Shown: piece after piece, positions 9,858-55,765 of the stretch
Position numbering within the stretch: the first letter of the stretch is position 1
Layout: the number at the start of each line of letters is the position of its first letter
Origin: Robertmurraya dakarensis
Lineage (GTDB): Bacteria; Bacillota; Bacilli; Bacillales; Cytobacillaceae
Direction: 5' to 3'
Length of the DNA stretch: 64,000 nucleotides
Assembly (NCBI RefSeq): GCF_900156875.1
Contig: NZ_LT707409.1
Location: 1,208,961-1,272,960, forward strand
Made by a program: the position numbers and the translations under genes
The notes under the pieces: model-generated
Databases searched by the model: none
What the model was told of the DNA's origin: nothing
What the model saw: the letters and a program-made list of their open reading frames with translations, nothing else

Positions 9858-11708
9858 TCATTGCCTTGGATCATTTAAAGTAACTTTCGTTGACTTCTTT
9901 GTTTTCTTTTCAATACCATCTGAAAATACGTTTTCTAGATAATCTTTCGGCATAATACAATCAAGACACGCTTCTGGTGTGAGAACTAATTCCAAGGTCA
10001 CCTTGTCTTCTTCAGCAGAGGTGACTATAATATCATATCCATCGGTTTGAAACCCTGGCCGGAAGGTTCTTAAAACTTCTTCCGCTGCTTGTTTCAAGTT
10101 GAGATGAGTGCTATTCTCAATGGCCCTTGTTGTCACTTTTGACCTGGTGAAAGTCCCCATAACAGCACTATGTTCTCCATAGCCCCCCGCGTGCACTATG
10201 ACAATATCTTCTGGATTCTTCGCAATATAAACTACCTTTTTCCCATTTTTATCAACGATGCAGTTTGATTTCCATGCTTGAATGGCTTCAATCGTTTTAG
10301 CATCAAAGGTGTCAAGATCTACTCTTGCTTTCTTCCATAATACTTCTCTGATCTTTTGTTTGTTGTAGCCTTTTTCACTGAGCATTTTTGCATGTACAGG
10401 ACTAATGACGATGACTGGCTGCATTTCAAAAATTAAAAAGTTTGAGGCAGTTAACAACAATACATCGGTGAGCTCGTCAAGGTAGATCTCAGCATTGCTA
10501 CCTAAGTGGATGACGTTGTAAGGTGCAGTGGTCGCAGCAACGGTAACGGTGCTTTGATCTTTAGCAAACCCTCTTTCGACATGAAGTGATTCCCATGGAC
10601 TTTCTTCCTCGAATTCAGCAATACAAGCAGTGTACTTTGCCGGATTTCCTAGAGTGGACATATCACCTATTCCAGGTCTGGCTCCGCCGATATTAAATAA
10701 CATTAACCGAACAGCCCGCCCAATTGTTGCATTCGCGTGCCAGCCGGGACCAAACAATCCGATTCCGCTATGAATTCCCAGTTCTTTACGAGCTGGACCA
10801 TTGACAATGACCATCGGACCTGCAGGGTTAGTAGTCGTCTGAACTCCGTATAGGTTAAAGTCTTTATCAAGCATGGCTTCAACGGTTGTCAGCATCAACT
10901 CAAAATAGTCTGGTGAGCAGCCAGCCATAACACAGTTGACTGCGACGTTTTCAACCGTAGTTTCACGCCAGAAAGGCGGCATAAGACCGATCACTTCATT
11001 GGGATCTCGCTTCGTTTTCGCTAGCATTCTTTCAACTCGTTCAACAGTTGGAGGAATAACCGGAAGCCCGTCTGTCCAGTCGTTTTCAACAAAATACGAA
11101 TTAATTTCATCAATGTTATCGCTTTCAAACTCAATGAACTTTCCAATTGAACCTGTCACGTACTCATCCAGTGTGGAAGGTGATAACAACCCATCTACAA
11201 CCTGTTGGAAAGCTGCCGTTAAATGCTGATGGGCCTGCTCTTTTTTTATCCCTCCCATTGGGAAAGGTACTTCAACCTTGGCAAGACCTTTACATCCCTT
11301 TGCTTCAGCTTCAAACTCTGCCAACTTAATAAACACATCGGAAATGATAGTGGCGGTTGGCAGTCCCCTCTTTTCAAGCTCTATGCTATCGTGGACACTC
11401 CACGATGTACACGACCCTCAATCACCTAATGACACGACAGCAGCATCATATCGTTCGCTGACAATTTGTTCAATTAACTCCTTGGGAGCGGGAAAGCTTG
11501 CATTCTCTTTTTCGAAAAGTATATATTCTTGAATACCATGATTTTCTTTTAAAAGTTCGCCTGCCTTTAAAAGGACTTCTGCTGCATTGGCCTTTTTATT
11601 ACTAAAAAGAGCGATTCGCTTTCCAGTTAGTTCAGAAAGCTTTGGTGATAATCCTGTGTTCTCTTGATCCTGAACTCCGTTTGCGACAGGTACATATACT
11701 TTTATCAA
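9858..11708 (-). CDS. UGSC-family selenoprotein (in-frame TGA read as selenocysteine)
   Basis: Two frames split by a single TGA at 11420-11418 form one protein of 616 residues. Around the codon it reads AAVVSLGD-U-GSCTSWSVHD, the Sec-Gly-Ser-Cys motif that names the UGSC family, with Sec at residue 97. The downstream frame is open for 520 more codons. The N-terminal domain (KRIALFSNKKANAAEVLLKA to about residue 150) carries the redox motif. The rest (NDWTDGLPVIPPT, GPGWHANATIGRAVR, LFNIGGARPGIGDM) is a second conserved region of unknown chemistry. TTG 11708 has AGAGGTGAT at good spacing. A perfect hairpin follows the TGA at SECIS distance. The reaction is not known. Confidence 0.9.
11388..11420 (-). 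promoter_or_regulatory. Predicted bacterial SECIS element of the UGSC gene
   Basis: After the UGA and an 11-nt spacer, the mRNA has AUCGUGGA-GUG-UCCACGAU, a perfect 8-bp stem (11406-11388). The apical loop starts 18-19 nt after UGA and has a G in its first two positions, fitting the bacterial SECIS description. Confidence 0.8.
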
Positions 11709-40150: not shown

Positions 40151-41590
40151 TTGTACCCTCAAATTATAACCTATTTATTAACTTTTATAAACTATCAAGA
40201 ACAAATGATTCGAACATTACTTACCTTATTAATTGGTAAAAGTATGTTTGATAAGCCAACAGAACAGCCGGTGAATAAACCCTATCGTAAACTTCAGGTA
40301 GATGATCTACCGATCATAGAACTACTAGAAAATCTCGATTATCAACTTCTCCTTACTGAATACTTAGAGAAAAACGGGAAACCCCTTAAACCTGTTCAAA
40401 GGCGTAAGAATGCAAAAATTTCAGTCCCTAAATCTATGAACTGTCCAAAGTGTGGTGCTCCATCAGATTACCTTTATGCCAATAATGGAGATAAAGGACA
40501 GTATCTATGCAAAGTCTGTTCCTGTCTTTTCAATGATAAAAGCCGTTATTCCAAAGAGGCCATTTTGAAGTGCCCTCATTGTTCGAAGACTCTAGAAAAA
40601 ATCAAGGAACGTAAAGACTTTGATGTGTACAAATGTAAAAACAATGATTGTTCTTACTATCAAAAGAAAATAAACGCAATGTCTTCAAAAGAGAAGAAAA
40701 GGTTTAGAAAGGACCCTCAGGCATTTAAACTGAGATACATTTTTCGTCAGTTTCATATTGAATTTCAACCTTTATCCAAAGATTCACCAGAGTTGCCGAG
40801 AGTGGATTTATCTAGGATTTATGCATCCCCACATACCTTAGGACTTATATTGACCTATCATGTAAACTATGGCCTTTCGGCCCGTAAAACAGCCGCGATT
40901 ATGCAGGATGTTCACGGAGTTATGATTTCTCATCAGACGATATTGAACTACGAAAATAGTGTTGCGCTCTTGCTTAAGCCTTACGTCGATCACTATCCGT
41001 ATGATCTTTCAGATCAATTTTGTGGTGATGAAACTTATATTCGAGTGAATGGACGCTGGCATTATTTGTTTTTCTTTTTTGACGCAGTGAAAAAGATCAT
41101 CCTATCTTACCCGGTGTCTGCCAATCGAGATACAGCGTCAGCCATTCGTGCGATAGATGAAGTGTTAGTAAAGATGAAAGAGATTCCAAAAGACCTTACT
41201 TTTGTAGTGGATGGAAACCCAATCTATCTTTTAGCACAACACTTTTTCGCTCAGCATGATATTTCTTTTGATGTGAAGCAAGTGATTGGGCTTACAAATG
41301 AAGACCCAGTCTCAACGGAATACAGACCTTTAAAACAGATTATAGAGAGGCTCAATCGAACATTTAAAGGCAACTATCGCTCGACTCATGGATTTGGTTC
41401 GGAAAAAGGATCTGTATCCTTTGTCACTTTGTTTGTGGCCTATTTTAATTTTCTACGGCCTCATGCATCCTTAGAAGGAAAAGTGCCTGTGGTAAACCCT
41501 CAATTACAAGGGCTTCCCACCATGCCAGCACGTTGGACAAAGCTTATAGAGTTAGCCCAACAATGGATTATCGAGCAACAGGTAGCCTAA
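40151..41590 (+). CDS. DDE transposase with zinc ribbons (IS copy 1)
   Basis: A 479-residue transposase. Two CxxC zinc ribbons occupy residues 98-123 (CPKCGAP, CKVC) and 141-167 (CPHC, CKNNDC). A helix-turn-helix-like stretch follows (YGLSARKTAAIMQDVHGVMI). The catalytic core has D293 in CGDETYIRVNGRWHYLF, D354 in FVVDGNPIY and E399 in IIERLNRTFKG. The DETYI...WHYL segment resembles IS6/IS240 transposases, although the D-to-E spacing of 44 is longer. The start is TTG 40151 after GGAAGTG. It would cut and join element ends. Confidence 0.85.
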   Translation: MYPQIITYLLTFINYQEQMIRTLLTLLIGKSMFDKPTEQPVNKPYRKLQVDDLPIIELLENLDYQLLLTEYLEKNGKPLKPVQRRKNAKISVPKSMNCPKCGAPSDYLYANNGDKGQYLCKVCSCLFNDKSRYSKEAILKCPHCSKTLEKIKERKDFDVYKCKNNDCSYYQKKINAMSSKEKKRFRKDPQAFKLRYIFRQFHIEFQPLSKDSPELPRVDLSRIYASPHTLGLILTYHVNYGLSARKTAAIMQDVHGVMISHQTILNYENSVALLLKPYVDHYPYDLSDQFCGDETYIRVNGRWHYLFFFFDAVKKIILSYPVSANRDTASAIRAIDEVLVKMKEIPKDLTFVVDGNPIYLLAQHFFAQHDISFDVKQVIGLTNEDPVSTEYRPLKQIIERLNRTFKGNYRSTHGFGSEKGSVSFVTLFVAYFNFLRPHASLEGKVPVVNPQLQGLPTMPARWTKLIELAQQWIIEQQVA

Positions 41591-41996: not shown

Positions 41997-43436
41997 TTGT
42001 ACCCTCAAATTATAACCTATTTATTAACTTTTATAAACTATCAAGAACAAATGATTCGAACATTACTTACCTTATTAATTGGTAAAAGTATGTTTGATAA
42101 GCCAACAGAACAGCCGGTGAATAAACCCTATCGTAAACTTCAGGTAGATGATCTACCGATCATAGAACTACTAGAAAATCTCGATTATCAACTTCTCCTT
42201 ACTGAATACTTAGAGAAAAACGGGAAACCCCTTAAACCTGTTCAAAGGCGTAAGAATGCAAAAATTTCAGTCCCTAAATCTATGAACTGTCCAAAGTGTG
42301 GTGCTCCATCAGATTACCTTTATGCCAATAATGGAGATAAAGGACAGTATCTATGCAAAGTCTGTTCCTGTCTTTTCAATGATAAAAGCCGTTATTCCAA
42401 AGAGGCCATTTTGAAGTGCCCTCATTGTTCGAAGACTCTAGAAAAAATCAAGGAACGTAAAGACTTTGATGTGTACAAATGTAAAAACAATGATTGTTCT
42501 TACTATCAAAAGAAAATAAACGCAATGTCTTCAAAAGAGAAGAAAAGGTTTAGAAAGGACCCTCAGGCATTTAAACTGAGATACATTTTTCGTCAGTTTC
42601 ATATTGAATTTCAACCTTTATCCAAAGATTCACCAGAGTTGCCGAGAGTGGATTTATCTAGGATTTATGCATCCCCACATACCTTAGGACTTATATTGAC
42701 CTATCATGTAAACTATGGCCTTTCGGCCCGTAAAACAGCCGCGATTATGCAGGATGTTCACGGAGTTATGATTTCTCATCAGACGATATTGAACTACGAA
42801 AATAGTGTTGCGCTCTTGCTTAAGCCTTACGTCGATCACTATCCGTATGATCTTTCAGATCAATTTTGTGGTGATGAAACTTATATTCGAGTGAATGGAC
42901 GCTGGCATTATTTGTTTTTCTTTTTTGACGCAGTGAAAAAGATCATCCTATCTTACCCGGTGTCTGCCAATCGAGATACAGCGTCAGCCATTCGTGCGAT
43001 AGATGAAGTGTTAGTAAAGATGAAAGAGATTCCAAAAGACCTTACTTTTGTAGTGGATGGAAACCCAATCTATCTTTTAGCACAACACTTTTTCGCTCAG
43101 CATGATATTTCTTTTGATGTGAAGCAAGTGATTGGGCTTACAAATGAAGACCCAGTCTCAACGGAATACAGACCTTTAAAACAGATTATAGAGAGGCTCA
43201 ATCGAACATTTAAAGGCAACTATCGCTCGACTCATGGATTTGGTTCGGAAAAAGGATCTGTATCCTTTGTCACTTTGTTTGTGGCCTATTTTAATTTTCT
43301 ACGGCCTCATGCATCCTTAGAAGGAAAAGTGCCTGTGGTAAACCCTCAATTACAAGGGCTTCCCACCATGCCAGCACGTTGGACAAAGCTTATAGAGTTA
43401 GCCCAACAATGGATTATCGAGCAACAGGTAGCCTAA
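41997..43436 (+). CDS. DDE transposase with zinc ribbons (IS copy 2)
   Basis: Identical in all 479 residues to the transposase at 40151-41590, with the same TTG start and the catalytic D293, D354 and E399. Complete identity means the duplication is recent or that conversion keeps the copies equal. Because both copies are intact, either could supply transposase in trans. Confidence 0.85.
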   Translation: MYPQIITYLLTFINYQEQMIRTLLTLLIGKSMFDKPTEQPVNKPYRKLQVDDLPIIELLENLDYQLLLTEYLEKNGKPLKPVQRRKNAKISVPKSMNCPKCGAPSDYLYANNGDKGQYLCKVCSCLFNDKSRYSKEAILKCPHCSKTLEKIKERKDFDVYKCKNNDCSYYQKKINAMSSKEKKRFRKDPQAFKLRYIFRQFHIEFQPLSKDSPELPRVDLSRIYASPHTLGLILTYHVNYGLSARKTAAIMQDVHGVMISHQTILNYENSVALLLKPYVDHYPYDLSDQFCGDETYIRVNGRWHYLFFFFDAVKKIILSYPVSANRDTASAIRAIDEVLVKMKEIPKDLTFVVDGNPIYLLAQHFFAQHDISFDVKQVIGLTNEDPVSTEYRPLKQIIERLNRTFKGNYRSTHGFGSEKGSVSFVTLFVAYFNFLRPHASLEGKVPVVNPQLQGLPTMPARWTKLIELAQQWIIEQQVA

Positions 43437-46935: not shown

Positions 46936-47105
46936 TAAAGATCTTCACTCCATTACCTAAGATAGATATAGTATTCACATTTCAACTTAGTATAACGCAT
47001 ACCTTGCACTTTTCACCATAACAATATGTAGTAAGTTCAATTATTGGTTAAACAATCCTCCTTCAGATATACTATGGTTGAATAACTTTTATGGGGGTAT
47101 GAAGA

Positions 47106-47804
47106 ATGCATATTGAAATGTGGACTGACTTTGCTTGACCATTTTGCTATATCGGCAAGAGGCGTCTGGAGGACGCACTTCAGAAAATAGATCATCCTGT
47201 TGAAGTAACGTATCGCTGCTTTGAGCTTGATCCGTCGATGGAAAAAGATATCAAGGAAAACATGTACGAAATGTTAGCGCGAAAATATGGAATGAGCCTT
47301 GAACAGGCGAAAGCCAATTCACAAAATGTTGTTCAAATGGCGCGTGAAGTTGGATTAGATTACAACTTAGATACGGTTATTTTGACCAACACCTTTGACG
47401 CACATCGTTTGACGATGTTCGCCAAAACAAAAGGCTTAATGACGGAGATGACGGAACGCCTTCTTCGTGCTTATTTTACCGATTCGAAGCATATTGGAGA
47501 CCACGAAACATTAGTTGAGTTAGCTGCTGATGTTGGACTTGATCGTGAAGAAGTAGCAGCGATGCTCGCAAGCAATGAGATGTCAGAAGAAGTTCGTGCT
47601 GATGAACAAGCTGCTGTCCAATACGGCATTCGCAGTGTACCGTTCTTTTTGATTAATAAAAAGTATGCCATCACCGGTGCGCAGCCGACAGAAGTATTTG
47701 TTCAAGCATTGAAAAAGATCATCGCAGAAGATGAAATCCAAGTAATGAACGAACAAACTGGCGCAGCATGTGACGATGACGGATGTGAAATTCCTAAGAA
47801 ATAG
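47106..47804 (+). CDS. DsbA/FrnE-family selenoprotein with a U-P-F-C motif (in-frame TGA)
   Basis: The gene starts at ATG 47106 after GGGGGT. It reads MHIEMWTDFA-U-PFCYIGKRRLE, where relatives of the FrnE type have A-C-P-F-C-Y-I-G-K. The TGA at 47136-47138 therefore takes the place of the first cysteine of the redox CPFC motif (Sec11, Cys14). The frame continues to 47804, giving 232 residues, the family's normal length, with FDAHRLTMFAKTKG, YGIRSVPFFLINKKYAITGA (the cis-Pro region) and a C-terminal CDDDGCEIPKK. A 5-bp stem with a G-containing loop lies 24-38 nt after the TGA. It is expected to act as a cytoplasmic thiol-disulfide oxidoreductase. Confidence 0.9.
47136..47176 (+). promoter_or_regulatory. 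Predicted bacterial SECIS element of the FrnE-like gene
   Basis: GCGUC (47162-47166) and GACGC (47172-47176) pair with loop UGGAG. The loop starts 29 nt after UGA and has G as its second base. A lower stem UUUUGC/GCAAGA (with one G-U pair) can form between UGA and this stem. Both fit a bacterial SECIS less perfectly than in the UGSC gene. Confidence 0.65.
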
Positions 47805-47924: not shown

Positions 47925-48335
47925 AAGGCTGAATCCGTTCTTATTCGGACTAATTAACAACAGACCTTATCGATTAAGTCTGAATTCGCTTGGTATTCGG
48001 ACTCTATCCTGTTAATACCTTTTAACCTTGTCGGAATCGGCTTATTATTCGGACTAAGTAATTGGCGCTTCCTTCAGACCAGTCTGAATCAGTTTGAAAT
48101 TCGGACTCTACCCTATTGATTCCTTTTAACCCTGTCGCAATTCGCTCATTATTCAGACTAAGTAACTGCAGATCTTTTCGTTCCTGTCTATATCCGCTTG
48201 ATATTCGGACTCCATCGTATTAATCCCTTCCAGTCCTGTCGCAATCCGTTCATTAATCAGACTAAGTAACTGCAGATCTTTTCGTTCCTGTCTATATCCG
48301 CTTGATATTCGGACTCCATCTCGGTATATTCCTTC
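47925..48335. repeat. Second tandem array with an exact 52-bp period (8 units)
   Basis: The core ATTCGGAC or a variant recurs at 47943, 47995, 48047, 48099, 48151, 48203, 48255 and 48307, always 52 bp apart. Each core is the right arm of a hairpin GTCnGAAT-N9-ATTCGGAC. Spacers alternate between two types (…CTnnATCCTATTGATnCC… and …TAAGTAACTGCAGATC…), making a 104-bp higher unit; the last two such units are nearly identical. The array lies between the 3' ends of two convergent genes. Confidence 0.9.
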
Positions 48336-55510: not shown

Positions 55511-55765
55511 CACAAAAAGCAATGATAGAAAATAACCTATCATTGCTGACTGTACAATATACGTTATCCTCCATTTCGATCAATAGTTCTCCATGCACGT
55601 ACTTCCAAGCATGACAGTGCGTTCCTTATTCAGGAAACACACCAACAGCGATAAGTTTGACCCTTATCTCTGCTTCGGCAAATAATCCTTTCATCAATCC
55701 TCATCGATGTCATACTCCGATTGATTACTGATATTATTCGCACCTCTACCTCACCGATCTGTTAG
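55511..55765 (-). promoter_or_regulatory. Lysine riboswitch (L-box) with terminator
   Basis: The minus strand between about 55759 and 55577 carries the L-box landmarks in order: GGUGAGGUAGAGGUGCGAA, UAUCAGUAAUCAAU, GAUGAAAGGAUUAUU, UGCCGAAG, GCACUGUCA and UGGAGAACUAU, with ends (AUCGGU/AUUGAU) closing P1. Downstream, AGCAATGATAG and CTATCATTGCT (55518-55547) form a terminator followed by TTTTTGTG. Lysine binding should switch off the amidohydrolase-symporter operon. The distance from terminator to start codon is about 120 nt. Confidence 0.93.

Follow-up and report, generated by a model that had tools for sequence, protein, structure and literature searches.

A gene at positions 47106-47804 on the plus strand of the analyzed window, by which we mean the whole stretch of 64,000 nucleotides of Robertmurraya dakarensis DNA, is predicted, with a probability of about 0.93, to encode a selenoprotein in which selenocysteine (Sec) is inserted at an in-frame UGA of an FrnE-type thiol oxidoreductase of the DsbA superfamily.

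Gene and predicted protein

The frame opening at ATG 47106 reads MHIEMWTDFA-TGA-PFCYIGKRRLE, as the sequence-only reading had reported, and apart from the TGA it stays open to TAG 47802-47804, giving 232 residues; GGGGGT at 47093-47098 is, from the sequence, its likely Shine-Dalgarno element. The TGA (47136-47138) would supply Sec as residue 11, where CPFC has its first cysteine, and TGC at 47145-47147 supplies Cys14, the second residue of the U-P-F-C pair (TGC in 96/96 distinct Sec genes). Assignment to the FrnE/DsbA-like family is upheld by matches of the protein to the Pfam profile DSBA (3.6e-44), to FrnE of Deinococcus radiodurans (2.1e-49) and to the closest solved sequence, SCO1869 of Streptomyces coelicolor (2.3e-53), while an NCBIfam search returned three matches, all far under cut-off. 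The alignment to FrnE (5cnw) and SCO1869 (3gl5) extends from residue 1/2 to residue 230/231, and it sets the TGA against the first cysteine of CPWC in 5cnw, in homologs CPFC, in agreement with the proposal that the codon replaces the nucleophilic cysteine. The protein thus aligned has a DsbA-type thioredoxin domain with UPFC (for CP[FW]C) near the N-terminus and a C-terminal CX4C, Cys222-DDDG-Cys227 (47769-47786), in which Cys222 and Cys227 fall under the C-terminal cysteines of FrnE as the counterpart of the D. radiodurans CX4C. This tail motif occurs in many FrnE members, not in all (PMC8945050). It is present in 100/114 Sec loci sampled; in the other 14 it was not found, comprising 12 proteins shortened to 209-214 residues, one frameshifted locus and one (L047) minus the first cysteine, such that 13 relatives with an intact frame have CX4C missing (12) or altered (1).

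An AlphaFold model with the TGA read as Cys, built with 24 window and locus proteins, had a mean pLDDT of 85.1, and its best PDB matches were the D. radiodurans FrnE entries (TM 0.84-0.85). The CX4C tail was poorly modelled, with residues 213-222, 224-226 and 228-232 under pLDDT 50, and the model is uninformative on how the tail docks. In sequence and model alike the N-terminus begins directly with strand 2-7; the protein is probably cytosolic. No conserved neighbor genes were detected when the 1.5 kb flanks of 76 relatives were compared with the 4 kb flanks of the window gene: three recurring open reading frames common with the window lie on the minus strand across the Sec gene itself, and among the 13 recurring frames listed no other was shared with the window, those outside the gene occurring in at most 11 loci. 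Just downstream of the gene, at 47932-48320, is a tandem array of period 104 with 3.8 copies. Elsewhere in the window are two open reading frames of 479 aa each (40151-41590 and 41997-43436), the first matching IS6/IS240-type transposases, and a lysine riboswitch on the minus strand (55576-55756, 118.6 bits).

The TGA codon and Cys/Sec exchange in relatives

Relatives were taken from matches in 93/101 searched genomes, the best 80 of 123 loci in a second collection, and six further stretches. The close group from that sampling comprises 116 loci, many of them (within L022-L051 and L052-L131) from the same species and two of them (L027 and L059) one gene; after removal of repeats there were 81 distinct sequences as 60-mers, 97 as 120-mers and 96 as genes. 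Two further TGA-bearing loci, L143 and L144, are left out of the 114 Sec loci. The codon at the TGA site was TGA in 114/116 close loci sampled and TGT in the remaining 2, which are the one gene L027/L059; it was never TAA or TAG. In more distant Cys-type homologs, 12 of our choosing from a larger number of matches, it was TGT, within CPFC, in 12/12. The alignment of homologs that had been suggested as a check on Cys/Sec exchange therefore came out in its favor, and an in-frame UGA at a redox-active position where homologs have Cys is what is expected of a bacterial selenoprotein.

One objection would be that the TGA is a true stop, produced by nonsense mutation or sequencing error, which would make the gene a pseudogene or an artefact. 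TGA is, after all, normally a stop, and the open reading frame under the standard code does not start until 47238. This would not account for the same TGA in loci from many assemblies, nor for codons conserved as protein both before and after it: IEMWTDFA, residues 3-10, precedes the TGA in 111/114 Sec loci. Moreover, the 116 TGA-bearing loci (the 114 Sec loci with L143 and L144) actually terminate at TAA in 68 cases, at TAG in 43 and at TGA in only 5. A pseudogene or sequencing error was rejected on the conservation of the TGA across assemblies, and we consider a true stop exceedingly improbable. Residue 1 is not ATG, GTG or TTG in 6/114 Sec loci, so the starts of those six must lie elsewhere. 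At one locus (L141, genome G044) the Sec-FrnE gene is frameshifted near its end, with the match to residues 189-232 continuing in another frame.

Phylogenetic analysis of 111 distinct proteins, with alignment column 11 removed, placed 97 Sec rows and the one Cys row L027/L059 in a single clade (SH-aLRT 100), outside of which were the 12 Cys rows and one TGA row (L143). The fewest Sec/Cys changes on this tree were three, a count from a quick search with 40/108 branches open and a root that was not clean. The nested Cys row adjoins L025 (93, not starred), and therefore its cysteine is best read as a likely return from Sec to Cys. In this gene the hairpin discussed below has GCGGU opposite AAAGC, with 2/5 stem pairs broken, and its genome (G060, 88% complete) has SelA and tRNA-Sec with no SelB over cut-off. 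Nested among Sec genes and with its hairpin broken, this Cys gene would let selenium and sulfur chemistry be compared in a pair made by nature.

The hairpin behind the TGA

The stem reported in the sequence-only reading was confirmed: GCGUC/GACGC, 5 bp (47162-47166 paired with 47172-47176, plus strand), with loop UGGAG (47167-47171), starts at the 24th base after the TGA and resembles the apical hairpin of a SECIS element. Published bSECIS criteria call for an apical loop of 3-9 nt with a G among its first two bases, an upper stem of 4-16 bp, a UGA-to-loop distance of 16-37 nt, and a minimum free energy no higher than -7.5 kcal/mol (PMC13188914). The window hairpin has a loop of 5 nt, a stem of 5 bp, G in the second loop position and a spacing of 28 nt; its free energy is -6.6 kcal/mol for the 15-nt hairpin alone, and folding the first 45 nt, where another small hairpin also lies, gives -13.3 kcal/mol.

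Relatives give stronger evidence than the window hairpin alone. Across the 81 distinct sequences, 98.1% of the 486 cells of a six-pair helix were paired, and helices slid along the alignment as controls reached at most 65.4% paired and 2 double-change cells. Cells changed on both sides numbered 27 against a shuffled mean of 6.4, with none of 500 shuffles as high, and the covariation score was 0.226 against 0.148 shuffled, a value reached in 0/500 shuffles, although all of these count sequences rather than events and kinship of the sequences can inflate them. Two other counts were not above chance: pairs showing a double change (2, reached in 187/500 shuffles) and further pair types (5, reached in 477/500). 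One of the two double-change pairs, columns 26-42, occurs as G-C, G-U and A-U and is not formed in the window sequence. The other, columns 29-39, occurs as G-C, A-U and G-U and is the more telling because the change from CGT to CAT alters Arg to His, in 19/97 distinct sequences, while GAC to GAT keeps the pair. Wobble bases are nearly invariant in another short helix behind the UGA (columns 10-13 paired with 19-22), but this helix showed no covariation and was rejected as a candidate.

Constraint is also visible in the choice of codons. Codons 14-22 (47145-47171, plus strand) have the least synonymous variation of any nine-codon stretch of the gene, at 0.207 of expected entropy, whereas all such stretches average 0.83 (sd 0.13); the frameshifted L141 was excluded from this gene set also. 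Residue 21 is encoded by CTG in 96/96 Sec genes, a codon that makes up 41/514 Leu codons in twelve window genes. Judged from these sequence comparisons, the hairpin is conserved, covarying and under selection. Chance occurrence was gauged with a rule written after the hairpin had been seen, by which 5 of the window's 2570 TGA triplets, counted on either strand and in every frame, had such a hairpin behind them and, of the 20 triplets with at least 100 open codons after the TGA, only 47136-47138; when the 26 residues that follow were recoded with synonymous codons, one arose in 28/20000 cases. This rather strict rule passes 102/114 Sec loci (failing 12) and also 2/14 Cys loci.

Folding of the window RNA, which had been proposed as a further check, gave a divided answer. 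The segment 47136-47190 folded better than its shuffles (z -2.95, 2/200) and the segment 47133-47200 did not (z -1.12, 31/200), and the minimum-energy folds of both use a stem other than the SECIS stem. The pair probability of the SECIS stem was 0.95-1 at 45 nt, 0.01 at 50 and 60 nt, and 0.09 at 70 nt, and it rose to 0.54 with the first 12 of 60 nt omitted; in two relatives folded likewise, L138 and L049, the SECIS stem forms. Because ribosome and SelB act on the mRNA, we tentatively take the competing stem to be a limit of free-RNA folding.

The competing fold in the window's own sequence could alternatively mean that UGA serves mostly as a stop, with Sec insertion minor or conditional, and that the cell works with a shortened protein of 188 residues, which an in-frame ATG at 47238 would give (residue 45 onward, 47238-47804). 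However, three elements of the model would be missing from that product: strand 2-7, strand 33-38, and helix 12-26, which holds the active site. Also, residues 3-14 are nearly invariant among the relatives, a conservation for which a non-translated leader would have no need. This makes a shortened working product unlikely, and insertion of Sec in a full-length protein is preferred. It was correctly foreseen that an open reading frame called from 47238 loses the active site: with UGA at codon 11, the same frame under the standard code yields only those 188 aa, and ordinary gene callers would cut the active site off here.

Selenocysteine machinery

The whole reading would have been in doubt had selenocysteine machinery been lacking from the genome, and the machinery was found: SelA (564.5 bits), SelB (361.9), SelD (400.2, in a match that crosses one TGA) and tRNA-Sec (57.1 bits). 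The Rfam model for tRNA-Sec was also over cut-off in five control genomes, unexpectedly in three of them (Caulobacter, Thermus and Thermotoga), so the model was not trusted alone; ARAGORN confirmed the anticodon UCA here. The same genome also gave a match to formate dehydrogenase that contains one TGA. Among the 101 genomes searched, 35 have the Sec gene, with SelA over cut-off in 34/35 and SelB in 35/35; each was over cut-off in 38 of the 66 others. These associations have Fisher values of 8e-6 for SelA and 8e-7 for SelB, counted by hand and with kinship ignored. For G001, the sole genome with the Sec gene and no full SelA, completeness is 81%, and a tRNA-Sec was found there along with a partial SelB.

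These data bear on whether near-cognate suppression could put some other amino acid, Trp or Cys, at the UGA without selenium. A cysteine would indeed restore the family motif. Near-cognate reading would leave unexplained, though, why all four sel genes are present, why SelA and SelB go with the gene, why the hairpin is under selection, and why the sole TGT gene of the close group has 2/5 stem pairs broken. We give it next to no weight, and decoding as Sec remains the reading of choice.

Other TGA-bearing genes

The suggestion that the window holds two selenoproteins agrees with a minus-strand frame of the UGSC family that reads SLGD-U-GSC, with its in-frame TGA at 11418-11420 and its end at 9858, and that matches PF24696 over residues 8-177 (1.1e-45). 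This frame probably encodes the other one; its TGA, one of the 20 triplets with long open frames, is missed by the hairpin rule. In the same genome as the window, L144 (G000:C11:814512) is a second, paralogous DsbA-type U-P-F-C gene with TGA at 613-615 and a strong hairpin behind it (z -3.41). Its protein is 31% identical to the window protein and nearest to L162 and L161, which are from other classes. L143 (genome G092) has TGA at the CPFC codon of a Cys-type FrnE; SelA and SelB are present, no hairpin there passed, and no tRNA-Sec was found in G092 at 1e-8. Its TGA may be a mutation, an error or an unusual recoding.

Discussion

In the mechanism that we propose, SelB with Sec-tRNA(Sec) would bind the mRNA hairpin at 47162-47176 and the UGA at 47136-47138 would be decoded as Sec. 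We infer SelB-dependent decoding from the sequence, from how it is conserved in relatives, and from the finding that the genome has all four sel genes. The Sec11 selenolate would most likely attack substrate disulfides, with Cys14 resolving the mixed selenosulfide, after which the Cys222/Cys227 pair might help to re-reduce the active site. Such a regenerating role for CX4C has been proposed in D. radiodurans FrnE (PMC8945050), and for that enzyme DTNB reduction with NADPH is reported; by homology, thioredoxin reductase or something similar could be the electron donor. As to this redox cycle in its details, we would put the odds at about even.

The active-site DNA pattern was found in 54/397 sampled genomes of the order and in 21/136 genera, counting the pattern only, with hairpins and whole genes apart, and a reversed control pattern was found in none of the order's genome rows. 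A looser pattern was detected in 7/398 genomes of the phylum: the present one, G008, and five belonging to other classes, in which the DsbA-type protein is shorter and more distant. Many bacilli live in air. The spread of the pattern stands against the view of a 2026 review that aerobic bacteria rarely retain selenoproteins (PMC13188914). It is possible, and we offer it only tentatively, that in bacilli Sec-FrnE belongs to the regular selenoproteins of many genera and is not a relic, that Sec entered their DsbA superfamily on more than one occasion (in the window gene, in L144 and perhaps in L143), and that selenolate chemistry could free the enzyme from its regenerating CX4C tail, as the 13 relatives with CX4C missing or altered might indicate. 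The gene is a probable case, in a likely culturable bacterium, of selenium used by a disulfide enzyme outside the strict anaerobes.

Sec-containing FrnE/DsbA-like proteins are already known in bacteria, animals and green algae, so the window gene is a further member of that family, and the value of the present analysis is in this case and its spread. A COG2761 "DsbA-like" selenoprotein with UXXC was described in the Sargasso Sea survey of 2005 (PMC1088965), COG2761 being also the COG of D. radiodurans frnE, DR0659 (PMC1978522). The 2026 catalogue has a "DsbA-like protein form 1" (PF01323, UxxC; PMC13188914), and 45 DsbA-like selenoproteins from 41 organisms have been counted (PMC5029168). Three selenoprotein families are listed for Firmicutes/Bacillales (PMC1794560), and Bacillaceae are not named as carriers in the literature passages on DsbA-like selenoproteins drawn on here. 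Laboratory work on a bacterial Sec-FrnE is not known to us from the open-licence literature. As described, the published bacterial proteins are like the window protein in their DsbA domain, Sec first in UxxC, a bSECIS behind the UGA, and Cys homologs; the link to them is through COG2761/DR0659 frnE and through the name FrnE.

In animals, FrnE (DsbA) is given as a selenoprotein family in SelenoDB 2.0 (PMC3965025) and for marine invertebrates (PMC3473315), with Sec-FrnE in sea squirt and amphioxus, where its Sec-TGA was mistaken in annotation for untranslated sequence, the same kind of error as is expected here (PMC2874816). Among green algae it is reported from Mamiellophyceae and one further species (PMC6627142). 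These eukaryotic proteins share the name and have Sec at the upstream Cys, and differ in that their SECIS is in the 3′-untranslated region, whereas the hairpin of the window gene is inside the coding sequence behind the UGA.

Closer comparison is possible with the Cys-containing enzymes and the shorter U-P-F-C proteins. FrnE of D. radiodurans (DR_0659; 5cnw, 5coh, 5co3, 5cp1, 5xwh) is alike in full-length homology, in fold, and in the places of CXXC and CX4C, but it has Cys22 in CPWC where the window protein has predicted Sec11 in UPFC. SCO1869 (3gl5) also has the C-terminal cysteines, and likewise a cysteine in place of the predicted Sec. The 12 Cys-type FrnE proteins fetched from the same order (L142, L145-L155) are 46-57% identical to the window protein and retain CPFC in 12/12 and the CX4C tail in 11/12; they differ in their TGT codon and their position outside the Sec clade, and are 212-243 residues long, with at least 240 in 9/12. 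The shorter DsbA-type U-P-F-C proteins, which are L158-L163 from the five genomes of other classes and the paralog L144, are more distant, L158-L162 and L144 being 28-34% identical to the window protein (L163 was outside this comparison), and L144 is without the CX4C that the window protein shares with D. radiodurans FrnE.
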